DNA of 40,682 nt from NCBI GenBank assembly GCA_946481345.1, contig CAMLMY010000016.1:1-40682 (forward strand), given 5' to 3'. Below, piece by piece: positions 5,803 to 21,142 of this stretch (within the stretch, counting starts at the first letter, position 1; each line of letters opens with the position of its first letter). A program made the position numbers and the translations under genes. The stretch comes from an uncultured Gilliamella sp. Lineage in GTDB: Bacteria; Pseudomonadota; Gammaproteobacteria; Enterobacterales; Orbaceae. Under the pieces are notes generated by a model. That model was not told the origin of the DNA. It did no database searches and was given only the letters and a program-made list of their open reading frames with translations.

Positions 5803-7056
5803 ATGACTGTTGATAAGCAACAATATGTTTTATGTTCGCACTGCGATTTGGTCATAGAATTATCCGATATAACAATAGGGCATAAAGCTATATGTCCTCG
5901 TTGTAATACCACATTAGCCAAAAAAAGCATTAATATGAAATTTCGAGCCGCAATGTATGCTGTTTGTTCACTCATTATGATTATTGTTGCTTGTGGTTTT
6001 ATTTTTATTGATATTCGCCTAGTCGGTAATTTAAATGGTGTAAGTGTTTTAGATATACCCAAAACTCTTTTTTTTGACAAATATAGTTATATTTCAGCGC
6101 TATTTATTTTATTTGTTTTAATTTTCCCCATAATAAATCTATTAATTATTAGTTTGCTTTGTTCAAAGTTTACAGTGTCAAAATATCGCAAAAGAGATTT
6201 ATTAATTATTTATGAAAAATTTAAACATTGGTGTATGCCTGAAATATTTATAACAGGCATTTTGGTTAGCTTTGTAAAACTAATGAGCTATGGCAGTATA
6301 GGTGTTACAAGTACCTTTTGGGCGTTTTGTTTATTTGTATTTTTTTATATAAAAGCACAAGTAATTTTTTCACCTGAAACAATTTGGGAAGAGATTAATA
6401 CCAATAATTTTGCTCAAGCACCATTAAAAGTCGGTAAGACGGCAATTAGTCAAAATTTGAAGCTGTGTGGTTGTTGTCATGCCATGATGCCAATAGCTTA
6501 TGTCAAATGCCCAAGATGTAAACAGAAAAGTGCCGTAAGAAATCGTGACAAAATACAGTGGACAATAGCATTATTGGTCACTTCACTAATTATTTATATT
6601 CCTGCAAATGTATTTGGGATTATGATAACGGTCGTTTTTGGTTCACCGTCAACGTCGACAATTATGGATGGTGTTATTTATATGTGGCAGGCGGGTGATG
6701 TACCTGTGGCATTAGTTATTTTTATTGCCAGCATAGTTATTCCAATTTTGAAAATAATTTCATTAAGTTGGCTTTGCTATTTTGCAATAGCTGTGAAAAA
6801 GAAAAATAAACATAATTGTTTAAAAATGAAAAAACTATATGGCGCGGTAGAATTTATTGGTAAATGGTCAATGATTGATATATTTGTTGTATCAGTTGTT
6901 TGTTCACTAGTTAGAAATCAACAAATGATGGGGGTTTATCCTGATATAGGCGTTACATTTTTCGCAACTGTTGTGATTATCACTATGATTGCATCGCAAA
7001 AATTTGATCCGCGTTTAATTTGGGATCATTCTCCAAATAAAAGTTATAATAAATAG
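5803..7056 (+). CDS. pqiA: PqiA, inner-membrane protein of the Pqi lipid-transport system
   Basis: PqiA is the multi-pass inner-membrane partner of PqiB and PqiC, an MCE system thought to move lipids between the membranes. The 417-residue length equals E. coli PqiA. Two homologous halves are visible. Each begins with a rubredoxin-like four-cysteine motif (CSHCDLVIEL...CPRCNTTL near residues 11-35; CGCCHAMMP...CPRCKQKS near 223-245) and is followed by four or so hydrophobic segments. The start has a Shine-Dalgarno AAAGGGAA. pqiB follows after 7 nt, so the three genes form one operon. In E. coli the pqi operon responds to SoxRS; I cannot show that here. Confidence 0.93.
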   Translation: MTVDKQQYVLCSHCDLVIELSDITIGHKAICPRCNTTLAKKSINMKFRAAMYAVCSLIMIIVACGFIFIDIRLVGNLNGVSVLDIPKTLFFDKYSYISALFILFVLIFPIINLLIISLLCSKFTVSKYRKRDLLIIYEKFKHWCMPEIFITGILVSFVKLMSYGSIGVTSTFWAFCLFVFFYIKAQVIFSPETIWEEINTNNFAQAPLKVGKTAISQNLKLCGCCHAMMPIAYVKCPRCKQKSAVRNRDKIQWTIALLVTSLIIYIPANVFGIMITVVFGSPSTSTIMDGVIYMWQAGDVPVALVIFIASIVIPILKIISLSWLCYFAIAVKKKNKHNCLKMKKLYGAVEFIGKWSMIDIFVVSVVCSLVRNQQMMGVYPDIGVTFFATVVIITMIASQKFDPRLIWDHSPNKSYNK

Positions 7057-7063
7057 GAACACT

Positions 7064-8701
7064 ATGGCAACATCAAGTAAATTAGCGAAAATCATCAAAA
7101 TTAGAGCCATCTCGGCGATATGGATTATTCCAATTGTTACTGCAATTGTAGGTCTTTGGATCATCTATTCTCATTTTGCTGATAGAGGGACTTCTTTTAC
7201 CTTACTTGCCAAAGATGCAAGTGGTATTGTGGCAGGTAAAACCGTTATTAAAAACCGCAGTGTTGATATCGGTATTGTCGATGAAGTAACGTTATCAGAA
7301 GACTTTGAAAAAGTGGTTATTAAAGGTCGAATCTATAATGATATGGAACCACTGCTTAAAAATGACTCTATTTTTTGGGTTGTCAAACCAGAGATTGGTC
7401 GTGATGGTGTAACTGGATTAGGTACTATTTTATCTGGTGTTTACATTGAATTAGCATCCGGAAACGATACACATAGTTTCAAAAATAATCCATTTATACT
7501 ATCGGATAACCCACCATTATCAGATCCAAGTATTAAGGGCATTCGAGTTAATCTTGAAAGTGATCAAAACGGTGTGATTCCGCGTGGGGCATCCGTGATG
7601 TTTCATGGTTATCGTGTAGGTAATGTTGAAACTTCTGAATTTGATATTGATTCACGTAAAATGAAATATCAAGTTTTTATCACCAAACCTTATGATGCTT
7701 TAGTCACTCAAAATGTTCGGTTTTGGAAAGAAGGAGGCATTGATTTAGCATTTTCTTCAGCGGGTGCAAGTCTTAACGTGCCTTCTTTAGATATATTAAT
7801 GTCGGGTGGTATTAGTTTTGATTTGCCTGATGGTTCTAAATTAGGCGCACCCGCAGAGCAACATGCCGTATATAAATTATATGAAGATAAAAAATCAATT
7901 CAAGATTCACAATATACAGAATATAAAGAATTTCTGATTATGCTTTCTGAATCCATATCTGGATTGGTTGAAGGTGCACCTGTTGAGTATCATGGTATTC
8001 GGCTAGGTACGGTATCTAAAGTACCATTTTATACACCTGAAATGTTAAATAAAACATTTATTTTAAATCAAAAAGTACCCGTATTAATTAGGATCGAGCC
8101 CGATCGCTTATCTGAGTTGGTTGATGAAAAGATCGATATTGCGACCTTAATTATGGATGAGCAAAAAAATGGTTTAAGAGCCTCGTTAAAAACTTCAAAT
8201 ATGTTTACAGGTGCGCTTTTTATTGATCTTGATTTTTATCCTGAATTAAAAAATAAATATAACTCCAAATCAAGTAATCTCTACGGTTATAACACTATAG
8301 AAACAACATCAACAGGTATTGCACAGATTCAGGCCAAAGTGATGCAGTTATTAGATAATTTCAATAATTTACCACTGAATAATACCATGACGGAATTTAA
8401 TAAATCGTTAGCTTCAACTCAGCGCTTAATGAATTCATTAAATCAAATTATGGCAAGTAATGAAATGCAAAATATGCCTGGCGATTTACAAGAAACGTTA
8501 AGAACGTTAAACGAAACTCTGAAAGGTATACAACCAGGTTCAGAACTTAATAAGCAAATGAATGAAAGTCTGCAAAAAGTTCAGCAAATGATGGATGAAT
8601 TAACACCATTACTTAATACACTTAATGATAAAAGTAATGCGTTGATTTTCTCTGCTCCAAATAAGAAAGACCAAGAACCGAAAGCGAAAGGTAAAAAGTA
8701 A
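7064..8701 (+). CDS. pqiB: PqiB, MCE-domain lipid transport protein
   Basis: PqiB is anchored in the inner membrane and forms a long periplasmic tube from three stacked MCE domains and a C-terminal coiled-coil needle. At 545 residues it matches E. coli PqiB (546). A transmembrane helix lies near residues 17-37. MCE repeats can be seen at about 38-135 (GIVAGKTVIKNRSVDIG), 155-250 (NGVIPRGASVMFHGYRVGNV) and 285-390 (GLVEGAPVEYHGIRLGTV). Residues from about 420 to 530 are helical, rich in Q, N, L and M, and fit the needle. The stop overlaps the pqiC start by one base. Confidence 0.94.
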   Translation: MATSSKLAKIIKIRAISAIWIIPIVTAIVGLWIIYSHFADRGTSFTLLAKDASGIVAGKTVIKNRSVDIGIVDEVTLSEDFEKVVIKGRIYNDMEPLLKNDSIFWVVKPEIGRDGVTGLGTILSGVYIELASGNDTHSFKNNPFILSDNPPLSDPSIKGIRVNLESDQNGVIPRGASVMFHGYRVGNVETSEFDIDSRKMKYQVFITKPYDALVTQNVRFWKEGGIDLAFSSAGASLNVPSLDILMSGGISFDLPDGSKLGAPAEQHAVYKLYEDKKSIQDSQYTEYKEFLIMLSESISGLVEGAPVEYHGIRLGTVSKVPFYTPEMLNKTFILNQKVPVLIRIEPDRLSELVDEKIDIATLIMDEQKNGLRASLKTSNMFTGALFIDLDFYPELKNKYNSKSSNLYGYNTIETTSTGIAQIQAKVMQLLDNFNNLPLNNTMTEFNKSLASTQRLMNSLNQIMASNEMQNMPGDLQETLRTLNETLKGIQPGSELNKQMNESLQKVQQMMDELTPLLNTLNDKSNALIFSAPNKKDQEPKAKGKK

Positions 8702-9285
8702 TGAATAAAATGATGCGAAATTTCCTTATAACATTTTGTGGAACTGCATTTATGTTACTCGTTGGCTGTTCAGCAAACACGGAAAATAAAAGTTATTTCC
8801 AATTAGCTAGTAATTTGCCTGTTCAAACACCAAAAACAATGAAATCAACTAATCGTTTTATAAAGATCGATTCCATTGATGTAGCCAGTTTCTTAAATAA
8901 ATCTGGTATTGTTTTGCAAACAGAAGATATCAAATATGTTACAGCTATAAATAATCTATGGGTTTCGACGCTTTCTCAACAGCTTGAAGAACGATTAGTA
9001 CAAGATTTAAGTTTGTTACTGCCAGATTATTTGATTTCGAGTAAGTCGCTAGCAACTCCAACATTAACCGTTAAACTTTTTATTGATGGTTTTCATGGTG
9101 GTTACAATGGAGATGCGATTATAAAGGGGCGTTGGATTGTTACAAACAATAAAAACCATATCGAAACAAAACCATTTGAACGACATATTCCATTAGCCAA
9201 AAATGGTTATGATGCTTTAGTTAAAGCGTTGTCAAAAGGATGGCAAGAAGAAGAGCAAGATTTTGCTAATTCTATAAGATATTAA
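8701..9285 (+). CDS. pqiC: PqiC, outer-membrane lipoprotein of the Pqi system
   Basis: PqiC is a lipoprotein that caps the PqiB tube at the outer membrane. The 194-residue product has a lipoprotein signal peptide ending in the lipobox LVGC, with the lipidated Cys at residue 23. The mature part has the DUF330/ABC-type transport auxiliary pattern: YFQLAS near the start, then IDSIDVASFLNKSGIVLQTEDIKYV and the ...NNLWVSTLSQQLEERLVQDL helix. Family length is about 187. The start codon overlaps the pqiB stop (TAATG), so it is probably translationally coupled. Confidence 0.9.
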   Translation: MNKMMRNFLITFCGTAFMLLVGCSANTENKSYFQLASNLPVQTPKTMKSTNRFIKIDSIDVASFLNKSGIVLQTEDIKYVTAINNLWVSTLSQQLEERLVQDLSLLLPDYLISSKSLATPTLTVKLFIDGFHGGYNGDAIIKGRWIVTNNKNHIETKPFERHIPLAKNGYDALVKALSKGWQEEEQDFANSIRY

Positions 9286-9292
9286 ATTAATA

Positions 9293-9324
9293 AAACATTC
9301 CGCCACCATTCTGGCGGAATGTTT
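9293..9324. terminator. Bidirectional terminator between pqiC and pabB
   Basis: A perfect 12-bp inverted repeat: AAACATTCCGCC at 9293-9304 and GGCGGAATGTTT at 9313-9324, with an 8-nt loop. It lies between two convergent genes. The A/T ends of the stem give a short U-tract in both directions, so it probably serves both. Confidence 0.88.
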
Positions 9325-9337
9325 CAATAATAGTAGA

Positions 9338-11092
9338 TCACAACATCTGCTTGAACCGATCAAATACCTTATCATCAATTTCAACCCATTTGCGAACACT
9401 ATTAATAAAAGCAATTTTATCAGCCTTTAATAATTCATCGATTAAAATTGTTTTTTCAATTATTTGTTTTTGATCCAAATAAAATTGTCGCATAGTACCA
9501 GCCAATAATCCCGATTTAATTTTAGGTGTAACCCATTGATTATTAATTAACAGCACAAGATTACCGTTTACAAATTCAGTTATTTCATTGTTTTGATTAA
9601 AATTAACATATTCTTTACCTATCGTTAGTTGCGGAAAATGTTCACGGTTTGATGTTTTGTGATACAAATAGATATTTTTATTATTCACACATTGTGGTGC
9701 GAGTGTGATTTCATTGATTTCCATTGGTACGTTAATAATGTCTTTGCTAATATCACATCGACCATCTTGTTGTAGTAAAATTCTGACCTTACAAATACTT
9801 TCACATTCTGTATTGGCTAATTTAATCAATTGCAATTTGATGGAATCAATATCACATTTAAAATCAAAATAGCATGCAGAATTAGCAAGTCTAGTTAAAT
9901 GTTCATCAAGTAATAAAAATTGCCCTTTTTCTAACAGTAATGATTCAATAAGATATTGGGGGATCCTTGCTGTGCGGTTTAATATAGCGGTTTTTGCTAA
10001 GATTTCACTATATTCATCGTTTGATGTTGAATCCCAAGTTATTCCACCGCCAACACCATAATGCATCTGCTGATTGTGAATTGTTAATGTACGAATGGGT
10101 ATATTAAATATTGCAGTTTTCATATAGGGAGTAATGTAACCTATGGTTCCACAATATACGCCTCTAGGTGAATTTTCAGTGTCTGCAATGATTTGCATTG
10201 TGCTTGTTTTAGGTGCTCCAGTAATTGAACCACAAGGAAACAATGCTTGAAAAATTTGATATAAACTGACCTGTTCAGCCAACTCGGCTTGAATGGTTGA
10301 GGTCAACTGCCAAACGGTAGGGTATTTTTCGGCAGAAAATAATTTTGGGACAACGACCGAGCCAGCTTTAGCAATTCGGCTTAAATCATTACGTAGTAAA
10401 TCAACAATCATCATATTTTCAGCCTGATTTTTCTCAGAAAATAATGTCTCTAACTGTTGTTTATCATGGTGAATATTTAAACCTCGAGCGGCAGTTCCTT
10501 TCATCGGTTTTGTTGTGATAGTTTGATTATCTAACTTAAAAAATAGTTCAGGAGAAATCGATAAAATCTGATAATTTTCAAATTCAAGATAAGCACAATA
10601 ACTCGCTTGGTTATTTTCTTGTAAAAATTTGTAATACTCATAGGCATTATCATTAAATGGTGCACTAAATTGAATCGTGTAGTTGGTTTGATACGTATTT
10701 CCCGATTCAATCTGCCCACGAATATAGTCAATTTTTTGGTTATATTCTTCGATTGAAGTGTCACATTTTAAATCGAAATGACAAGGTTTGTAATCACTTT
10801 TTGTTAATGATTCAACTGTTGAATAATCTTGATAAATTCCAAATAATAGTACAGGTAGTGCATCATCTGATTTTTGGATATTCTTGGTTTTATTTACTTG
10901 ATTAAATCCCATTGCACTTTCATAAGCAAGATAACCAACCGCATAAAAACCTTGCTGTGTGAACTTTTCGATTGCATCTAATTGTTGTTTAACCGTGGTG
11001 TAATCGTTGGATCTCAAAATCGTAATAGGATCAGAAAAACATTTCTGTTGACCTTCAAAATCAATATAAACTTTCATATTAATATTACTCAT
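9338..11092 (-). CDS. pabB: Fused aminodeoxychorismate synthase component I and aminodeoxychorismate lyase (PabB-PabC)
   Basis: Makes 4-aminobenzoate for folate. The N-terminal part, with PabA, converts chorismate to aminodeoxychorismate; the C-terminal part would release pyruvate. The 584 residues split into a chorismate-binding domain (to about 365; motifs PMKGTAARG, AENMMIVDLLRNDLSRIA, PCGSITGAPKTSTMQII and GVYCGTIGYI) and a class IV aminotransferase-fold PLP domain (about 375-584; LLLDEHLTRLANSA, a YHKTSNRE segment with the likely PLP lysine, and LLAGTMRQF). E. coli has separate pabB and pabC. The first ATG (11092) overlaps pabA by 8 nt and lacks a strong ribosome site, suggesting coupling; an ATG at 11077 (MKVYIDFEG) is also possible. 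Confidence 0.93.
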   Translation of the reverse strand: MSNINMKVYIDFEGQQKCFSDPITILRSNDYTTVKQQLDAIEKFTQQGFYAVGYLAYESAMGFNQVNKTKNIQKSDDALPVLLFGIYQDYSTVESLTKSDYKPCHFDLKCDTSIEEYNQKIDYIRGQIESGNTYQTNYTIQFSAPFNDNAYEYYKFLQENNQASYCAYLEFENYQILSISPELFFKLDNQTITTKPMKGTAARGLNIHHDKQQLETLFSEKNQAENMMIVDLLRNDLSRIAKAGSVVVPKLFSAEKYPTVWQLTSTIQAELAEQVSLYQIFQALFPCGSITGAPKTSTMQIIADTENSPRGVYCGTIGYITPYMKTAIFNIPIRTLTIHNQQMHYGVGGGITWDSTSNDEYSEILAKTAILNRTARIPQYLIESLLLEKGQFLLLDEHLTRLANSACYFDFKCDIDSIKLQLIKLANTECESICKVRILLQQDGRCDISKDIINVPMEINEITLAPQCVNNKNIYLYHKTSNREHFPQLTIGKEYVNFNQNNEITEFVNGNLVLLINNQWVTPKIKSGLLAGTMRQFYLDQKQIIEKTILIDELLKADKIAFINSVRKWVEIDDKVFDRFKQML

Positions 11093-11887: not shown

Positions 11888-11927
11888 ACTTAAACGTACC
11901 CATAACCTGAAACTTTTTGACAAAAAT
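11888..11927 (+). repeat. 40-nt dispersed repeat, copy 1
   Basis: This stretch matches 40607-40646 at 36 of 40 positions. The shared core CATAACCTGAAACTTTTT is exact. AAACGTA on its left and ACAAAAAT on its right are also exact. Both copies are preceded by T-rich DNA. Here the copy ends 10 nt before a CRP box, so it is part of, or next to, the promoter of the yiaK-like operon. Confidence 0.85.
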
Positions 11928-11937
11928 ACCTTCTTTT

Positions 11938-11953
11938 TGTGATGACTCTCACA
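11938..11953 (+). promoter_or_regulatory. CRP-binding site, yiaK-like operon
   Basis: TGTGATGACTCTCACA is a perfect TGTGA-N6-TCACA palindrome flanked by TTTT and AAAA, close to the CRP consensus. Its centre is about 40-46 nt upstream of the likely start of transcription, depending on which -10 is used, consistent with class II activation by cAMP-CRP. Confidence 0.85.
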
Positions 11954-11970
11954 AAAGCCTACAGCTATTC

Positions 11971-11984
11971 TTGTATGGTAGTAT
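11971..11984 (+). promoter_or_regulatory. Shared 14-mer TTGTATGGTAGTAT (extended -10 and/or RspR operator), copy 1
   Basis: The identical 14-mer occurs at 15077-15090. In both places it begins 18 nt after the last base of a CRP box. It contains TGGTAGTAT, which reads as an extended -10 (TGN-TAGTAT). Because identity extends beyond the -10, it may also be the operator for RspR. No -35 is needed at a CRP-activated extended -10 promoter. Confidence 0.65.
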
Positions 11985-12149
11985 ATTTTATTATATTTTC
12001 CCTAAATTCAATCAACATAGGCTTTATTTAATAAAAACAACAAACAAATTAGACGTTTTTATGACTCCTTTTTTGATTGAATTATTAAACTCACCAAAAC
12101 TAAACATTAATAAAAGTTTCGACAGGTCTATTTATGTGAGGATACGAAT

Positions 12150-13163
12150 ATGCAAAAAATAACATTTGAAGAAATGAAAACGACTATAAAAAAAGCATTT
12201 CTTAATGCTGGATTATCTGAATCACAAGCAGAAATATGTGCACATATACATACCGAATCTACTTCTGACGGGGTTTATTCCCATGGGTTAAATCGTGTCG
12301 CTCGTTTTGTTGATTATGTCAATAAAGGTTGGGTAGATATTAACGCTAAACCTAGTTTAGTTAAATCACTGGGTGCGCTTGAAGTTTATGATGGAAATCA
12401 AGGGATCGGAATAACAAATGCACTTTTTGCTTTAGATAAAGCAATTGAATTAGCTAAAAAACATGCTGTTGGCATTATTGGATTACGTAATACAACGCAT
12501 TGGATGCGAGGCGGAACTTACGGTTGGAAAGCTGTAGAAAAGGGATTTGCAGCAATGTGTTGGACAAATATTGAATCGTGTATGCCTGCGTGGGGAGCAA
12601 AAAATACACGTTTAGGCAATAATCCATTCGTGATGGCAGTGCCGAGTTCAGATGGTTCAATCGTTGTTGATATGGCGATGTCACAATATGCATATGGTAA
12701 GCTTCAAGTCACTCGCTTAAAAGGTGAGAAACTTCCGTTTCCAGGAGGTTATGACAAAGATGGAAAATTAACTGATGATCCAGGATCAATAGAAGAATCA
12801 ATGCGAATTCTACCAACTGGATATTGGAAAGGGTCAAGTATGGCTATCGTATTAGATGCAATGGCTGCACTTTTATCGATGGGCAATCCAACTAATGAAA
12901 TTGATAAGATTCAAAAAGGAAGCTGTACTGGTGCTAGTCAGATTTTTATGGTATTTGACCCATCTCAATTAGGTGGCAAAGAATTTAACGAACAGATGGT
13001 TAATAGTATTACTCAATATGTTAATACATCAACACCGGCTGAAGGACAAAAAGCAGTTTTTTATCCAGGTGAATTATCAATAAAAACACGTAAAGATCAT
13101 CTAACCAATGGTATTCCTGTTGATACTGAAGTGTGGCGTGAAGTGGTTTCATTAGCAAATTAG
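12150..13163 (+). CDS. yiaK: YiaK/DlgD-family NAD(P)-dependent 2-oxoacid dehydrogenase (2,3-diketo-L-gulonate reductase-like)
   Basis: Belongs to the malate/L-sulfolactate/L-lactate dehydrogenase type 2 family. Within it, the closest relative I recognise is YiaK (DlgD), which reduces 2,3-diketo-L-gulonate to 3-keto-L-gulonate. Length 337 compares with 332 in E. coli. Shared motifs are GVYSHGLNRVARF (probable catalytic His45), LRNTTHWMRGGTYGW, CWTNIESCMPAWGAKNTRLGNNP, RILPTGYWKGSSMAIVLD and GASQIFM. Ribosome site GAGG precedes the ATG. It is first in an operon with a GPH symporter 86 nt downstream. The exact substrate is uncertain; no other ascorbate or diketogulonate genes are nearby. Confidence 0.85.
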   Translation: MQKITFEEMKTTIKKAFLNAGLSESQAEICAHIHTESTSDGVYSHGLNRVARFVDYVNKGWVDINAKPSLVKSLGALEVYDGNQGIGITNALFALDKAIELAKKHAVGIIGLRNTTHWMRGGTYGWKAVEKGFAAMCWTNIESCMPAWGAKNTRLGNNPFVMAVPSSDGSIVVDMAMSQYAYGKLQVTRLKGEKLPFPGGYDKDGKLTDDPGSIEESMRILPTGYWKGSSMAIVLDAMAALLSMGNPTNEIDKIQKGSCTGASQIFMVFDPSQLGGKEFNEQMVNSITQYVNTSTPAEGQKAVFYPGELSIKTRKDHLTNGIPVDTEVWREVVSLAN

Positions 13164-13249
13164 CTGAAATCAAAATTAATAATTAAAAAATATATAGCGA
13201 ATCATTAATTTTTACGCCAAACGACGAATTGATTAAAAAGGAATAGAAT

Positions 13250-14758
13250 ATGAATAATGCGGTTAGTGACAAGAAAAAAGTGACGATTCCAATCGCTATC
13301 GGTTATGGTTTAACAGATATTATGGGGGGTGGCGCCTTTACCATCATTGGAGCATGGTTACTCTTTTTTTATACCACCTTTGTAGGATTAACGCCTATTG
13401 AGGCAGCATCTATTGTGGCAATTGCAAGAATTGTTGATGCAATCGTTAGTTTATTTATGGGTAGTTTTACCGATAATTTTTACAAATATAAATTAGGACA
13501 AAAATTTGGTAGAAGACGGTTTTTCTTACTAATTGGTTCTCCTCTTATGTTGATTTATGTTTTACTTTGGATAACAGGGATGAATTATTGGTTTTATTTA
13601 ACCGTATATCTAGTATTTGAAATTGTTGCAGCTATTGTATTGATTCCTTGGGAGACATTACCCTCAGAAATGACTAAAGATTATAATGATCGAACCAAAT
13701 TATCTACAGGCCGGATGTTTTTATCTGCAAGTGGAACTTTCTTAGCAACTTTAGTGCCGGGTATTTTAATTCATAATTTTGGTGAAAATAACGCTTACGC
13801 TTATTTTATTAATGGACTTTTCTTCGCGATTATTTTTGCTGTTTGTGTATTTATTTCATATAAAGTTACGTGGGAACGAGAGCTGACTCCAGAGATGTTG
13901 AAGCATCAAGAACAAGGTGTGAACAAAAAGAGTTTTTCTGAAAAAGTAAGTGCTGTTAAACAACTAGTTAAGGATTATGTATCTACATTTCATATTAAAG
14001 CTTTTCGTCGTCATTTAGCTATCTATTTATTTTCATTTACAGCAAAAGATATTTTTAATACGGTTTTTGTCTTCTTTTGTGTCTATTGTTTATGTGTCTC
14101 TTCGTCATTTGCTGGAGGACTATTATCGTTAAGTATTATAGGGTTACCAATAACATTATTGGCTGGTGTTGCAATGGTAAAATACGGTCCAGGAAAGCTG
14201 TATGTTTTCTCTTATACAACTATGATCATCTGTATTCTTGGTTTTTATGCAATATATATAGTCGATCCGTCATCCAAAATCTGGTGGTTGTATATTATAG
14301 CGATTTGTTATCAAGCTGGTCGATGTATTTTAGAATTTACCCCATGGAATGTGTTCCCATTTATTCCTGATATTGACGAAATGCTCACCAGACAACGTCG
14401 AGAAGGTTTATTTGCTGCTGTAATGACATTTGGTCGCAAAACAACGGTTGCTATTGCAACGTTTATTGTGGGATTAATTCTACAAAAGGGTGGCTTTGTG
14501 CAAGGAAGTACTCAACAAAGTGCTGAAGCAATAAATACCATAAGTATTTTATTTGTTGGTGGTACAGTTGGTTTATTATTAATTGCGTTAATTTATGCTT
14601 TAACCTTTAAGTTAAATAAACAAACTCACACAATTTTGGTCGCAGAAATAGAACGTTTAAAAAATAATGGTTCAAAAAATGATGTTTCAGAACAGACACG
14701 TAAAGTTGTTGAAAATCTTACTGGTCATAAATATGAACATTTGTGGCGAGATAAATAA
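13250..14758 (+). CDS. GPH-family sugar or sugar-acid:cation symporter
   Basis: A 502-residue membrane protein with about 12 transmembrane helices in the glycoside-pentoside-hexuronide:cation symporter pattern. Seen are YGLTDIMGGGAF in helix 1, the helix 2-3 loop with RIVDAIVSLFMGSFTDN...KFGRRRFFLLIGSP, and ETLPSEMTKDYNDRTKLSTGRM in the middle of the N-terminal half; the C-terminus is charged and cytoplasmic. It sits behind the YiaK-like dehydrogenase, so it probably imports that enzyme's substrate or a precursor, such as a hexuronate, hexonate or oligogalacturonide. The substrate cannot be read from the sequence. AGGA ribosome site upstream; a strong hairpin terminator follows. Confidence 0.85.
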   Translation: MNNAVSDKKKVTIPIAIGYGLTDIMGGGAFTIIGAWLLFFYTTFVGLTPIEAASIVAIARIVDAIVSLFMGSFTDNFYKYKLGQKFGRRRFFLLIGSPLMLIYVLLWITGMNYWFYLTVYLVFEIVAAIVLIPWETLPSEMTKDYNDRTKLSTGRMFLSASGTFLATLVPGILIHNFGENNAYAYFINGLFFAIIFAVCVFISYKVTWERELTPEMLKHQEQGVNKKSFSEKVSAVKQLVKDYVSTFHIKAFRRHLAIYLFSFTAKDIFNTVFVFFCVYCLCVSSSFAGGLLSLSIIGLPITLLAGVAMVKYGPGKLYVFSYTTMIICILGFYAIYIVDPSSKIWWLYIIAICYQAGRCILEFTPWNVFPFIPDIDEMLTRQRREGLFAAVMTFGRKTTVAIATFIVGLILQKGGFVQGSTQQSAEAINTISILFVGGTVGLLLIALIYALTFKLNKQTHTILVAEIERLKNNGSKNDVSEQTRKVVENLTGHKYEHLWRDK

Positions 14759-14848
14759 TGCAATGATGAGGAGATACATCTTCGCTCATGATAAATATTG
14801 TTATCTTTAAGATCCTCTATCAAATCTGATATTTATAAATATTTTTAT

Positions 14849-14885
14849 AAAAAAATGTAATATTGATTCAATACTACATTTTTTT
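14849..14885. terminator. Terminator after the GPH symporter gene
   Basis: Near-perfect hairpin: AAAAAAATGTA at 14849-14859 pairs with TACATTTTTTT at 14875-14885, and TATTG/CAATA extends the stem after one mismatch, leaving a 3-nt loop. It ends in a run of T, a good intrinsic terminator that also isolates the downstream rspA promoter. Confidence 0.85.
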
Positions 14886-15043
14886 ATCTATCCCAAATAT
14901 ATCAATAATTAATTTTGATAATCTTGTTTAAAATCAACTTAATAATCTGATGATAATTATCTGATTAACTATTTTTTCAGCATTCCAATCTATAGTTAAA
15001 ACATTTGCTAAACCTCAATTTCTTTACGATCTCTCCTCCTTAG

Positions 15044-15059
15044 TGTGATCTTTCTCACA
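15044..15059 (+). promoter_or_regulatory. CRP-binding site, rspA operon
   Basis: TGTGATCTTTCTCACA is a perfect TGTGA-N6-TCACA palindrome followed by AAAA. Spacing to the downstream 14-mer is exactly the same as at the yiaK-like promoter. Confidence 0.87.
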
Positions 15060-15076
15060 AAAACATTCTAATCTAC

Positions 15077-15090
15077 TTGTATGGTAGTAT
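15077..15090 (+). promoter_or_regulatory. Shared 14-mer TTGTATGGTAGTAT, copy 2
   Basis: Identical to 11971-11984 and starts 18 nt after the end of the CRP box, as there. Includes the extended -10 TGGTAGTAT. Candidate RNA polymerase and RspR contact site. Confidence 0.65.
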
Positions 15091-15136
15091 TGGATCGATT
15101 AATTTGATGTTGCACTAATTATTAACGAGGTATTCA

Positions 15137-16351
15137 ATGAAAATTGTAAAAGCAGAAGTTTTTGTATGTAGTCCGGGTCGAAACTTTGTCACATTAAAAA
15201 TAACCACCGATGAAGGCGTTTATGGTGTTGGTGATGCAACACTTAACGGGCGAGAATTATCAGTAGCATCTTATCTTAAAGATCACCTTTGCCCTCAACT
15301 TATTGGGCGTGATCCTCATCAAATTGAAGATATTTTCCAATATTTTTATAAAGGAGCTTATTGGCGTCGTGGTCCAGTGACAATGTCAGCGATATCGGCA
15401 ATTGATATGGCGTTATGGGATATCAAAGGTAAAGTTGCCAATATGCCGCTTTATCAATTATTAGGTGGTGCTTCACGTACTGGCGTGATGGTGTATTGCC
15501 ATACCACTGGTAAAGATATCGAAGAAGCGTTAGATGATTATGCTAAACATAAAGAGATGGGTTTCAAAGCAATCCGAGTCCAATGCGGTATACCCGGAAT
15601 GAAAACGACTTATGGTCAAAGTAAAGGGAAAAATCTTGCATACGAACCCGCTACGCGTGGCAATTATCCTGAAGAACAGTTTTGGGCAACGGATAAATAT
15701 TTAGACTTTACGCCAAAATTATTTGAAGCAGTGCGAAACAAATTCGGTTTTAACGAACATCTATTGCATGACATGCACCATCGCTTAACCCCAATTGAAG
15801 CTGCGCGTTTTGGTAAAAGTATTGAAGATTATCGTCTATTTTGGATGGAAGATCCTACACCGGCTGAAAATCAAGAATGCTTCCGTTTAATTCGTCAACA
15901 CACTGTAACACCCATTGCTGTTGGTGAAGTATTTAACAGCATTTGGGACTGTAAACAACTTATTGAAGAACAGCTCATTGATTACATTCGAACCACAATA
16001 ACTCATGCTGGTGGTATCACTCACATGCGTCGAATAGCTGATTTTGCTGCGCTTTATCAAGTTAGAACTGGCTCTCATGGACCATCTGATTTATCACCAA
16101 TCTGTCATGCCGCAGCACTACATTTTGATATGTGGGTGCCTAACTTTGGTGTTCAAGAATTTATGGGTTACTCAGAACAGATGTTAGAAGTCTTTTCTCC
16201 AAATTGGACTTTCAATGATGGTTATATGCATCCAAGTGACAAACCAGGTTTGGGAATCGATTTTGATGAAAAACTAGCCGCTAAATATCCATACAACCCC
16301 GCTTATTTGCCAATTGCTCGTTTAGAAGATGGCACTTTGTGGAATTGGTAA
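15137..16351 (+). CDS. rspA: RspA, D-mannonate dehydratase-like enolase-superfamily protein
   Basis: Member of the ManD group of the enolase superfamily, which dehydrates D-mannonate to 2-keto-3-deoxygluconate. It has 404 residues, the same as E. coli RspA, and reads as very close to it throughout. Active-site residues by position: Arg147 and Tyr159 ([14 protein letters not shown]), metal ligands Asp212 (LHDMHHR), Glu238 (WMEDPTP) and Glu264 (VGEVFN), with His214 as catalytic acid/base. E. coli RspA was first named for starvation sensing, and some RspA/ManD proteins are poor catalysts, so real flux here is uncertain. GAGGT ribosome site; rspB follows after 15 nt. Confidence 0.95.
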
Positions 16352-16366
16352 GTTAAAGGAGTTTAT

Positions 16367-17383
16367 ATGAAAAGTATTGCAATAAAACAACCCAATGAAT
16401 TAGTAATCGAGGAACGTGAAGTTCCTCAACCTAAATCAGGTGAGGTTAGAGTAAGAGTAAAATTAGCTGGTATTTGTGGTTCAGATAGTCATATTTACCG
16501 CGGACATAATCCTTTTGCTAAATATCCAAGAGTAATTGGGCATGAATTTTTTGGGGTGATTGATGCTGTTGGAGAGGGGGTTGATCAATCTAGAATCGGT
16601 GAGCGTGTTTCTGTTGATCCTGTAATTAGCTGTGGATGTTGTTACCCTTGTTCAGTTGGTCGTCCTAATGTTTGTTCCTCTTTAACTGTTTTGGGTGTTC
16701 ATCGTGATGGCGGATTCAGTCAATATGCCGTTGTACCAAGTAAAAATGCTTATGTGATACCAAATGAAATCAATGATGAATTTGCTGTAATGATAGAGCC
16801 TTTCACAATAGCTGCTAATGCAACTGCACAACTAAAACCGACCCAAAATGATGTTGCATTAATTTATGGTGCAGGCCCAATGGGATTAACTTCAGTGCAA
16901 GCCCTGAAAGGTGTGTATAACGTTAAAGAAGTTATTGTTGTCGATCGTATTGATGAACGTTTAGCTATGGCAAAAAGTAGTGGTGCTGATCGGACTATTA
17001 ATAACACATCATTATCATTAAAAGATGAATTAGATAAATTGAATATCAAACCAACGGTAATCATTGATGCCGCTTGTCATCCTTCAATTTTGCAAGAAGC
17101 AATTACAATTGCATCGCCAGCCGCAAGAATTCTCATTATGGGTTTTTCAAGCGATCCATGTCAAATAACACAACAAGGTATTACCAGTAAAGAGCTTTCT
17201 ATTTTCTCTTCACGACTCAATGCAAACAAATTCCCAATCGTCATTGATTGGTTAAATAAAAAATTAATTGATCCTAACAAACTGATTACTCATCGATTTG
17301 ATTATACGGATGTGGTTCAGGCAATCCAAACTTTCGAAAAAGATCAGAAACAGTGTTGCAAGGTTTTATTGACTTTTAGTTAG
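16367..17383 (+). CDS. rspB: RspB, zinc-dependent sugar-acid dehydrogenase
   Basis: Zinc-binding medium-chain dehydrogenase, 338 residues (E. coli RspB 339). Catalytic zinc ligands are Cys37 (GICGSD), His59 and Glu60 (GHEFFG). The structural zinc site is Cys89, Cys92, Cys95 and Cys103. The Rossmann motif is GAGPMGL, followed by VVDRIDERL with an Asp suggesting NAD preference. RspB relatives have been reported as L-gulonate 5-dehydrogenases giving D-fructuronate; that activity is inferred here from family and context. AAGGAG ribosome site. It lies between rspA and an MHS transporter in the same operon. Confidence 0.94.
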   Translation: MKSIAIKQPNELVIEEREVPQPKSGEVRVRVKLAGICGSDSHIYRGHNPFAKYPRVIGHEFFGVIDAVGEGVDQSRIGERVSVDPVISCGCCYPCSVGRPNVCSSLTVLGVHRDGGFSQYAVVPSKNAYVIPNEINDEFAVMIEPFTIAANATAQLKPTQNDVALIYGAGPMGLTSVQALKGVYNVKEVIVVDRIDERLAMAKSSGADRTINNTSLSLKDELDKLNIKPTVIIDAACHPSILQEAITIASPAARILIMGFSSDPCQITQQGITSKELSIFSSRLNANKFPIVIDWLNKKLIDPNKLITHRFDYTDVVQAIQTFEKDQKQCCKVLLTFS

Positions 17384-17426
17384 GTCAATTTTTATAAACT
17401 AAATGATAAGTGAGAGCGAGTAAAAT

Positions 17427-18776
17427 ATGAATAAGATAGGAAATAATAAAAGTGAAAGAAATACTTCAGATTTAGTTAAAGCTGCTGTTTCTGGTTGGCT
17501 TGGAACCGCATTAGAGTTTATGGATTTCCAATTATATTCTTTAGGTGCTGCACTTGTATTTCATGAAATATTTTTCCCTGAACAATCAGCGATTATGGCA
17601 TTGATATTAGCGATGGGAACTTATGGCGCTGGATACGTTGCACGTATTGTTGGCGCTTTTGTTTTTGGCCGCATGGGTGATGCAATTGGTAGAAAGAAAG
17701 TATTATTTATCACTATCACTATGATGGGTATTTGTACCACATTGATAGGTTTTTTACCCACCTATGCTCAAGTCGGTATTTTAGCGCCATTAATGTTAGT
17801 TGTTTTGCGTATTATTCAAGGATTAGGTGCTGGTGCAGAAATTTCTGGTGCTGGCACTATGCTCGCAGAGTATGCGCCAAAAGGAAAACGAGGAATTGTT
17901 TCTTCACTTGTTGCGATGGGTACTAACTGTGGGACTTTAAGTGCGACAGCAATTTGGGCAATTATGTTTTTTATACTAGATAAAGATCAACTCATATCTT
18001 GGGGGTGGCGAGTACCATTTATTGCCAGTGTCATTGTTATGATCTTTGCCATTTGGCTCCGAATGAATTTAAAAGAGAGCCCTGTTTTTGATGATGTAAA
18101 TGATGCAACAGCAAAAACAAGTAATGAAAAACCAGCAATTAAACATATTTCATTATTGGAGATGTGTAAAAGTAAATCTTTTTGGTTAGCAACGGGGTTA
18201 CGCTTTGGTCAAGCTGGGAATTCTGGTTTAATTCAAACTTTTTTAGCCGGTTACTTAGTACAAGCATTGTTATTTGAGAAAAGCATACCAACTGATGCTT
18301 TAATGATCAGTTCAATTGTTGGTTTTTTCACAATTCCTTTCTTAGGTTGGTTATCCGATAAGATTGGGCGTCGCGTACCTTATATAATTATGACTTTATC
18401 AGCAATTATTCTTGCTTATCCAATGTTATCTATTATTGTTGATAAAAATCATTCAGTGAGTACCATTATGTTATGTTTGATTGTTATTCATAACGTTGCG
18501 GTATTGGGACTGTTTGCATTAGAAAACATCACAATGGCAGAAATGTTTGGCGCGCGTAATCGATTTACTCAAATGGCGATATCTAAAGAAGCAGGTGGAC
18601 TTATTGCGGTAGGATTTGGTCCAATATTAGCGGGAATTTTCTGTAAAATGGTTAACGATTGGTGGCCAATTGTTGTTATGATTATTATCTATTCTTGTAT
18701 TGGTTTAGTTTCTGCGATTTTTATGCCTGAGGTAAAAGATCGTAATTTAGCTGATTTAAAAGATGCAGCAGAATAA
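17427..18776 (+). CDS. ydfJ: MHS-family MFS transporter (YdfJ-like)
   Basis: Metabolite:H+ symporter subgroup of the major facilitator superfamily, 449 residues, about 12 transmembrane helices. MHS signatures are [22 protein letters not shown] in helix 1 (two stretches around MDFQLY), [13 protein letters not shown] in loop 2-3, [24 protein letters not shown] in helices 4-5 and [14 protein letters not shown] in loop 8-9. Its place between rspB and ydfI corresponds to ydfJ, which in E. coli K-12 is a transporter gene disrupted by the Qin prophage; here it is intact. Likely imports the sugar acid used by RspA, RspB and YdfI. The downstream gene overlaps or abuts it. Confidence 0.88.
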
Positions 18777-18792
18777 AAAAATGGGAAAAATA

Positions 18793-20274
18793 ATGAAATT
18801 ATCAAATCAAACTTTATCACAACTACCTGAAGCGGTAGTTGTACCAAATTATGATAGAAATCAGCTTAAAACTAAAATCGTTCATCTTGGTTTTGGTGCT
18901 TTTCATCGTGCTCATCAAGCTGTATTTGCCGATATTTTAGCTGCCGAACATGGTAGTGATTGGGGATACTGTGAAGTCAATTTAATTGGTGGTGAAAAAC
19001 AAATCGCTGATCTTAAAGAACAAAATTATCTATTTAGTGTTTGTGAAATGTCCTATGATAACTGGTCTACTCGAGTGGTGGGGGTCGCCAAAGAAGCATT
19101 ACATGCAGATATAGATGGTATAGCAAAAATTTTAGAGGTTATGACGCGTCCAGAAATCGCAATTATATCAATAACTGTCACTGAAAAAGGTTATTGCTAT
19201 TTACCCGCGACAGCATCAATTGATATCAATAATGTCCTTATTCAACACGACATTGACAATCCAACTCATCCTAAAAGTGTGCCGGGGGTCATTGTTGAAG
19301 CTTTACGTATTCGTAAAGAAAAAGGCTTGAAACCTTTTTCGGTCATGTCTTGTGACAATATGCCAGAAAATGGTCATGTAACACGTAATGTAGTTTCGGC
19401 TTTAGCAAAAATAAGGGATGCAAACTTATCCCAATGGATTGAAAAAAATGTCAGCTTTCCATCTACTATGGTTGACCGTATTGTGCCAGCAGTAACGCCA
19501 GATACAATAACAAAAATACAAAAGCAATTGGGGGGCATTGACGATCTTGCAGGTGTTGCTGGTGAGCCATTCAAGCAATGGGTAATTGAAGATAATTTTG
19601 TCGCAGGTCGTCCAGAATGGCAAAAATCGGGTGCAGAGTTAGTCAATGATGTTTTACCGTATGAAGAAATGAAATTACGCATGCTAAATGGCAGTCACTC
19701 CTTTTTTGCCTATCTAGGGTATTTGGCAGGATATTTACACATAGATGAATGTATGCAAGATCCCCATTATGTAAAAGCGGCTCGTCACCTTATGTTACAA
19801 GAACAAGCAACGACCTTACGCGTAAAAGGGGTTGATTTATCTGCTTACGCAGATTCGTTACTGGATCGTTATCGTAACACAGGCCTTAAACATCGTACTT
19901 GGCAAATTGCCATGGATGGTACATTAAAATTACCACAACGTATGCTTGATTCAGTTCGTTATCATTTAGCCAATAATACACCATTTGATTGTTTGGCTTT
20001 AGGTATTGCTGCTTGGATGCGATACGTTAGTGGTATCGATGATAATGGTAAAAATATTGAAATTAGTGATCCGGCCGCAGAGCAACTAAAAGAGTTGGTA
20101 TCAAACAGTCCCGATAATGAAGAGCGAGTCAAAGCATTATTATCATTGACGCATGTTTTTGGAAATGATTTATCTAATAATCAACATTTTATAGTTCAGG
20201 TTACCAACGCTTATTTATCTTTAAGAGATAAAGGTGCTAAACAAACCGTTCAACAATTAGCACAAAGTTTTTAA
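18793..20274 (+). CDS. ydfI: YdfI-like D-mannonate/fructuronate oxidoreductase
   Basis: Polyol-specific long-chain dehydrogenase family (mannitol dehydrogenase, UxuB). Expected reaction: NAD-dependent interconversion of D-mannonate and D-fructuronate. The Rossmann start is [17 protein letters not shown]. Other family blocks are [46 protein letters not shown] and the active-site region [22 protein letters not shown] place the start at 18793 (MKLSNQTL, 493 aa) because GGGA lies at good spacing. In-frame ATGs at 18763 and 18781 would make 503 or 497 residues, the first overlapping the transporter gene by 14 nt. Last gene of the operon; a terminator follows. Confidence 0.92.
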
Positions 20275-20458: not shown

Positions 20459-21142
20459 ATGTTTAAATCTATCGACTTAAATATTTCTGAACCTGTTAAT
20501 CAACAAATTTATCGTACATTACGAAAAGCTATTATTACCTGTTATGTATTACCAGGTGTTTTACTTTCAGAAAAAGAAATTTCCAGTCAATTCAATGTTT
20601 CTCGCCAACCTGTCCGTGAAGCATTTATTAAACTAGCTGAAGCAGGTCTTGTACAAATTCTTCCCCAACGTGGCACATTTGTAACGAAAATTTCTATCAA
20701 GAAAGTGATGGATGGGCAATTTATCCGTGAAGCAGTTGAATGCGCCATCATCAAGCGGGCAGCTATAGAGATTAGCCAATCAGACATTTTACTGTTGCAA
20801 AAAAATCTTGCGGAACAAAAACAAGCCAATGAACGTAAAGACATAAGCTATTTTTTGGAAAAAGATGACGAATTTCATCAAATATTAATGAATGTAATTG
20901 ATTGTCCTATGGCATGGCAAACAGTTGAAAATATCAAAGCAATGATGGATAGAGTTAGATATTTAACATTAGAAGATGTCTCTCCACCGGAAGATCTAGT
21001 TAAACAACATGAAAAAATTTTAATTGCACTGGAAAATCATGATCCAGAGCTTGCAGCACAAGCTTTACATGAACATTTGTCGGCGATTCTACAAACTATA
21101 ACAATCGTGTCGCAGCAAAAAAATGAATGGTTTGTTGATTAA
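20459..21142 (+). CDS. rspR: GntR/FadR-family regulator RspR
   Basis: Transcription factor with an N-terminal winged helix-turn-helix (about 1-75; SEKEISSQFNVSRQPVREAFIKLAEAGLVQILPQRGTFV, conserved around SRQPVREAF) and a helical FCD effector domain (about 80-215; FIREAVECAIIKRAA, DDEFHQILM, HEKILIALENHD with metal-ligand Asp and His residues). It closely matches E. coli RspR (YdfH, 228 aa), known to control rspAB. It stands alone after a terminator. GATGGTATATG at its own start codon resembles part of the shared 14-mer, a weak hint of autoregulation. Expected targets are the two promoters at 11.9 and 15.1 kb. Confidence 0.93.
   Translation: MFKSIDLNISEPVNQQIYRTLRKAIITCYVLPGVLLSEKEISSQFNVSRQPVREAFIKLAEAGLVQILPQRGTFVTKISIKKVMDGQFIREAVECAIIKRAAIEISQSDILLLQKNLAEQKQANERKDISYFLEKDDEFHQILMNVIDCPMAWQTVENIKAMMDRVRYLTLEDVSPPEDLVKQHEKILIALENHDPELAAQALHEHLSAILQTITIVSQQKNEWFVD

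Follow-up and report, generated by a model that had tools for sequence, protein, structure and literature searches.

Why do two neighboring operons share one promoter design? The question is raised by a 40,682-nt stretch of DNA from an uncultured Gilliamella sp. (contig CAMLMY010000016.1; hereafter the window), in which a yiaK-type dehydrogenase gene with a GPH-type symporter gene (12150-14758) and an operon of rspA, rspB, an MHS-type symporter gene and ydfI (15137-20274) stand in tandem, followed by rspR (20459-21142). As an earlier note on this DNA had claimed, each operon is preceded by a CRP site, TGTGA-N6-TCACA, at 11938-11953 and 15044-15059—the sole two zero-mismatch sites in the window—and by the same 14-mer, TTGTATGGTAGTAT, at 11971-11984 and 15077-15090, which begins 18 nt past the last base of each CRP site. 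The shared string is in fact a 15-mer, with an extra 5' C at 11970 and 15076. Our answer, to which we assign a probability of roughly 0.85, is that the two promoters descend by copying from a single ancestral promoter of the rspA type and together make up a small local regulon under RspR and CRP, the activator that responds to carbon starvation.

The identity of the 14-mer is suggested by the rspA promoter of E. coli (L009), which reads TGTGATCACTCCGGCT-N17-TTGTATGGTAGTAG, with a distance equal to that in the window, and in which an ATACttGTAT box overlaps the 14-mer. RspR represses this promoter and gives a 31-bp footprint with ATACnnGTAT at its center (PMC8249747), and a second source names CRP and YdfH as the activator and the repressor, respectively, of E. 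coli rspA (PMC7567609). Because of this overlap, footprint and listed control, we take the 14-mer to be the right two thirds of a predicted RspR operator region together with a putative -35 element. In the mechanism that we propose, cyclic AMP (cAMP)-CRP would activate each operon in class I manner, from a site whose center lies roughly 60 bp before the start, and RspR, encoded just downstream, would repress both by occupying the CTTGTATGGTAGTA region with its -35 hexamer (occlusion). Low glucose combined with a hexonate or uronate-derived inducer that relieves RspR would switch both operons on, so that yiaK-GPH would provide a keto-acid reductase along with uptake, and the rspA-rspB-MHS-ydfI operon would convert L-gulonate or a uronate to D-mannonate and on to 2-keto-3-deoxygluconate (KDG). 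For Gilliamella, the binding of RspR to these sites, the positions of the start sites and the identity of inducer and substrate are our inferences. Within its own genome (2.2 Mb, about 75% complete), exact copies of TTGTATGGTAGTAT occur only at the two rsp-locus sites. Fifteen two-mismatch copies exist besides, and both one-mismatch copies are intragenic and were rejected as further members of the regulon.

Conservation of the promoter and its association with rspR

The first line of evidence is the conservation of this promoter among relatives. We compared 80 genomes from the order—42 from the family of the window, 29 from the family with most hits (f19) and 9 others, a sample therefore enriched in hits—and aligned 55 rspA promoters (26 from Gilliamella, 29 enteric) from 50 genomes with an RspA orthologue plus five named loci. 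Omitted from the 55 were L010, L153 and L156, whose sites are the same as those of L125, L131 and L126, and L182, which holds the paralogue of genome G171; L162, L163 and L165 have no RspA start. The open reading frame (ORF) caller kept only the longest among overlapping ORFs, and genes it left unlisted, such as rspA of L161 and L171, were placed by other searches. RspA orthologues are present in 50 of the 80 genomes, and upstream of them, with no motif required, the sequence closest to CTTGTATGGTAGT is an exact copy in 49 and differs at one base in the other; the 59% identical RspA paralogue in G171 is without a box. The string CTTGTATGGTAG is invariant in all 55 promoters, Gilliamella and enteric, and TGTGA begins 31-33 nt ahead of the box C in all except one, which has CGTGA. 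A scan for TGTGA-N(13-43)-TTGTATGGTAG gave 64 matches in 55 of 394 genomes of the order, with N of 27-29 in 54 matches against about 6 expected under uniform spacing, and a clustering so far above this expectation excludes chance. The other 10 matches include three second TGTGA words at boxes already listed (G158, G225, G234). The search of relatives for the motif near CRP boxes, which the earlier note had put forward as a check, thus finds both the motif and a near-constant spacing kept. Its step of exactly 18 nt was too strict a claim: the step is 19 nt in the rspA promoters of Gilliamella G017 and G021 and 17-19 nt in enterics.

The promoter is also associated with the repressor gene. At E 1e-30, rspR is found in 52 of the 80 genomes and the composite motif in 54; 50 have both, 24 neither, two rspR only and four the motif only, which leaves six discordant genomes. 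Within the genus (35 genomes), 26 have both, none rspR only, two the motif only and seven neither. Both rspR-only genomes (G130, G380) do possess the box, with CGTGA as the CRP half. The motif-only genomes are G010, with an orphan box and the rsp operon gone; G024, which is 67% complete; G198, whose two matches are both intragenic and were rejected as chance; and G297, which has the box, rspA and rspB, and where no rspR was found at E 1e-30 genome-wide or in the 15.5 kb of the locus. In the RspR protein, the recognition-helix stretch 47-61, VSRQPVREAFIKLAE, is identical in five aligned sequences from Gilliamella, E. coli, Kluyvera and Serratia, the overall identity of the aligned proteins to the window RspR being 50-88%.

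The rsp locus itself is variable, and parts of it are often lost or gained (L160-L163 and L165, from G243, G114, G234, G262 and G130). In G234, G262 and G130 rspA is missing, yet the box is retained ahead of what remains of the operon. In L172 (G372), four genes stand between rspB and ydfI (5943-9793), which by eye resemble those of a TRAP-type transporter plus one more periplasmic protein. The orphan CRP-RspR box of G010 (L158) lies on the minus strand between ORFs 6289-6897 and 7358-7945. Its CRP half is imperfect and its box end altered, and the genome gave no matches for rspA, rspR or yiaK; it is the promoter that remained after loss of the rsp operon.

Second boxed operons and the origin of the yiaK promoter

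The second line of evidence is that a second boxed operon is found in other genomes as well. Among the fetched loci there are 12 second-operon boxes, and 8 of these operons contain yiaK: as yiaK-GPH in the Gilliamella genome of the window and three more of the genus (G000, G002, G005, G018), and as rspB-yiaK-yiaL in two Kluyvera loci, one Serratia and one Symbiopectobacterium locus. The remaining second operons consist of GPH alone (G001), rspB-MHS (G243) or an MFS gene (G114 and G234, mutually 88% identical). Where YiaK is at least 73% identical, the box is upstream of the yiaK operon in 6/6 loci; relatives at most 63% identical account for 35 of the 41 loci, and no box with 0-1 mismatches was seen in the 7 of these 35 that were inspected. 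YiaK-type genes of 40-43% identity, in 8 of the 80 genomes, are located away from the rsp locus. In Kluyvera, the second boxes deviate at 1-2 positions of their right end, and the downstream half of the CRP site is poor. In Kluyvera/Serratia-type loci, GPH stands in the rspA operon together with uxaC and ydfI, so that gene content is exchanged between the two boxed operons genus by genus; such passage of genes between both boxed units is as expected of a single regulon. The proposal of the earlier note that CRP and RspR join both operons in one regulon is therefore well supported by the motif, by its co-occurrence with rspR and by second boxes at yiaK elsewhere, its part concerning RspR at yiaK being a prediction. 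Judged from these sequences, the extension of RspR control to a yiaK-type operon is probable. We found no description of such control in the open-licence literature, subscription papers and RegPrecise pages being outside the scope of this search. The switch itself is known from E. coli rspA; its probable second target is new.

The two classes of box differ at one position. Base -1 is T in 7 of the 12 second-operon sites (position 11969 in the window, for example) versus 1 of the 55 rspA sites, a difference noticed post hoc among related genomes, in at least three lineages. This T may weaken an RspR half-site and lead to graded repression. A more elaborate reading, which we advance only tentatively and regard as doubtful, is that of a modular two-operon RspR regulon whose second operator is tuned weaker and whose real operator is TACTTGTATGGTAGTA and not ATACnnGTAT; symmetry judged by eye gives too few positions to choose between the dyads ATACnnGTAT and TACT-N8-AGTA. 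If this reading were true, the yiaK, rspB or transporter module would be induced earlier or more strongly than rspA.

How the second promoter arose bears on whether it has a function. The differing DNA around the shared elements had been taken to mean selected spacing and no recent duplication, which the comparison does not support: in G001, the two promoters agree at 16/16 nt of the spacer from CRP site to box. In the window, the 16-nt spacer of the yiaK-GPH promoter (P1) agrees with other Gilliamella rspA promoters at up to 12/16 positions (reached in 0.15% of 2000 shuffles) and with its own rspA promoter (P2) at only 8/16, from which it follows that common descent is likely and is not recent here. 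In G018, the P1 spacer agrees at 11/16, which is not significant (9% of shuffles). The yiaK promoter thus probably originated long ago as a copy of an rspA-type promoter, followed in some lineages by exchange or by a recent copying event. The identical pair in G001 and the 12/16 agreement would also suit a passive recent duplicate, left by local rearrangement and without regulatory effect on yiaK-GPH, but we consider this unlikely for several reasons. The P1 and P2 spacers have diverged to 8/16, yet both CRP palindromes are perfect and the 15-mer is identical; the G018 similarity is not significant; decay without selection looks like the G010 remnant, where the CRP half is imperfect and the box end has changed; and in other genera second boxes stand on different operons.

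Core-promoter geometry and points against a shared regulon

In E. coli, the box lies 66 nt from the ATG of rspA and the reported start is 30 nt ahead of the start codon (PMC8249747), which puts the start at box C + 36. If the start in Gilliamella were E. coli-like, the CRP center would by analogy be near -60.5 (the class I criterion that we applied is a center near -61.5 from the start), and the RspR box would extend from about -39 to -30 and cover the -35 hexamer TTGTAT. In the Gilliamella rspA promoters, column 24 is T, column 25 A and column 29 T (25/26 each), a pattern that reads as a TAnnnT -10 at 17 bp. Such an arrangement would agree with class I activation and with repression through occlusion. 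The same TTGTAT and downstream TAnnnT would also suit an explanation in which the 14-mer is a conserved core-promoter element working with CRP (a -35, or an extended -10 TGGTAGTAT) and its right half is unread by RspR; a start nearer the box would, moreover, suit the short box-to-start-codon distance in Serratia and Symbiopectobacterium. This explanation appears improbable: a core element has no need of 12 invariant bases, the motif is gone from 7 of the 9 rspR-less Gilliamella genomes (the exceptions being a locus remnant and the 67%-complete genome), and the footprint reported for E. coli RspR covers the motif (PMC8249747). That the box is read by another GntR-family regulator, of the UxuR or ExuR type, has in its favor that related regulators exist in the family, but can be given very little credence since the motif tracks RspR, the regulator whose distribution was tabulated, in 74 of the 80 genomes and E. 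coli RspR is reported to bind the rspA promoter (PMC8249747). Matches of the window RspR to the UxuR, ExuR and other regulator models of NCBIfam are all far under cut-off.

Several observations nevertheless count against a regulon of two operons under CRP and RspR. Each window site has one mismatch to the published ATACnnGTAT box (ATTCttGTAT in P1, CTACttGTAT in P2), and the first base of this box is unconserved, being C in 24 of the 26 Gilliamella rspA promoters. In Serratia and Symbiopectobacterium, the box is only 43-47 nt from the start codon, too short for a start at +36 plus a ribosome site, and therefore the -35/-10 reading is not universal. A simple sigma-70 scan found no consensus site at either window box, at a threshold that excludes weak hexamers. 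The genomes share ancestry, so that Fisher P values of the motif-rspR association overstate independence, and a YiaK orthologue is present in just 4 of the 80 genomes, which all belong to one genus. In E. coli, genomic systematic evolution of ligands by exponential enrichment (gSELEX) gave one RspR target, whereas the window has two boxed operons. Finally, binding and expression at the Gilliamella sites are predictions made from DNA sequence.

Table 1. Features of the two promoters and of the rsp locus (window coordinates)
Feature	Position	Strand	Remarks
P1 (yiaK-GPH operon) CRP site TGTGATGACTCTCACA	11938..11953	+	exact palindrome
P1 predicted RspR operator region	11967..11984	+	ATTCttGTAT + conserved GGTAGTAT; putative -35 TTGTAT 11971-11976 inside
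P1 putative -10 TATTTT	11994..11999	+	17 bp after -35; from sequence, column counts and reported E. coli start (PMC8249747)
P1 predicted start	near 12006	+	by analogy with E. coli start
yiaK-type Ldh_2 dehydrogenase, 337 aa	12150..13163	+	NCBIfam NF009750 401.9 bits (cut-off 316); Pfam Ldh_2
GPH-type symporter, 502 aa	13250..14758	+	Pfam MFS_2; TIGR00792 149.5 bits, under cut-off 231.35
P2 (rspA operon) CRP site TGTGATCTTTCTCACA	15044..15059	+	exact palindrome
P2 predicted RspR operator region	15073..15090	+	CTACttGTAT + GGTAGTAT; putative -35 TTGTAT 15077-15082 inside
P2 putative -10 TAATTT	15100..15105	+	17 bp after -35; start predicted near 15112 (reported E. coli start, PMC8249747)
rspA, D-mannonate dehydratase (ManD) family	15137..16351	+	NF043051 735.9 bits (cut-off 550)
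rspB, Zn-dependent dehydrogenase	16367..17383	+	NF007489 639.6 bits (cut-off 376)
MHS-type metabolite:H+ symporter	17427..18776	+	TIGR00883 427 bits, slightly under cut-off 443.45; Pfam MFS_1
ydfI, fructuronate reductase / mannitol dehydrogenase family	18763..20274	+	NF011611 620.8 bits (cut-off 603)
rspR (ydfH), GntR-FCD repressor	20459..21142	+	GntR and FCD domains (Pfam); 51% identical to E. coli RspR

Pathway and comparison with known systems

The enzymes of the two operons point to sugar acids. NCBIfam models scoring above cut-off identify RspA as a ManD D-mannonate dehydratase, YdfI as a member of the fructuronate reductase subfamily and YiaK as a 3-dehydro-L-gulonate 2-dehydrogenase; the models for the GPH and MHS symporters score under cut-off. 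By analogy with HiGulD of Haemophilus influenzae, RspB may be an L-gulonate 5-dehydrogenase. Our best guess is that D-mannonate and KDG are supplied from L-gulonate, uronates or keto-gulonates. The yiaK leader (window 12006-12149, with 180 nt from box to ATG) contains an inverted repeat, ATTCAATC/GATTGAAT, that four Gilliamella genomes share; a structured leader was rejected, the fold being no better than shuffles (z -0.82) and no Rfam match being found at E 0.1.

These findings matter because RspR of E. coli K-12 is described as a single-target regulator and the role of its genes is debated, between starvation signaling and mannonate use. Its probable control of another operon, one that encodes a YiaK-family enzyme and sugar-acid transporters, both in a bee-gut genus and among several enterics, argues that the job of RspR is sugar-acid catabolism and offers candidate substrates and inducers. 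In addition, the conserved operator is longer and better kept than the published box.

In E. coli, yiaK encodes a 2,3-diketo-L-gulonate reductase, and the window enzyme belongs to the same YiaK family (NF009750 above cut-off); the E. coli yiaK operon is under YiaJ. The closest layout is that of L012-L015 (rspA-uxaC-GPH-ydfI / rspB-yiaK-yiaL; Kluyvera, Serratia and Symbiopectobacterium), which like the window have two boxed operons of homologous genes, a YiaK 73-74% identical and rspR nearby. However, the partners of yiaK there are rspB and yiaL, in contrast to GPH in the window, and the CRP downstream halves are degenerate; neither uxaC nor yiaL was seen among the window ORFs of the locus. In chemistry, the nearest parallel is the L-gulonate pathway reported for H. 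influenzae (HiGulD, UxuB, UxuA), which leads from L-gulonate via D-fructuronate and D-mannonate to KDG (PMC5788505). Equal chemistry is plausible for RspB, YdfI and RspA of the window; the dehydratase is UxuA in H. influenzae and an enolase-superfamily ManD in the window, which adds a yiaK-type reductase. In bee Gilliamella, fructuronate reductase and L-gulonate 5-dehydrogenase are reported to be typical, with loss in one species (PMC10470603). The regulatory parallel is the E. coli rspA promoter, which shares with the window the CTTGTATGGTAGTA string, the 33 nt from TGTGA to TTGTAT, the rspA and ydfI genes and a nearby rspR. The two differ in that the CRP sites of the window are perfect palindromes, whereas the downstream half is poor in E. 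coli rspA, and in that ATAC, the left arm of the E. coli box, is replaced in the window by CTAC or ATTC.

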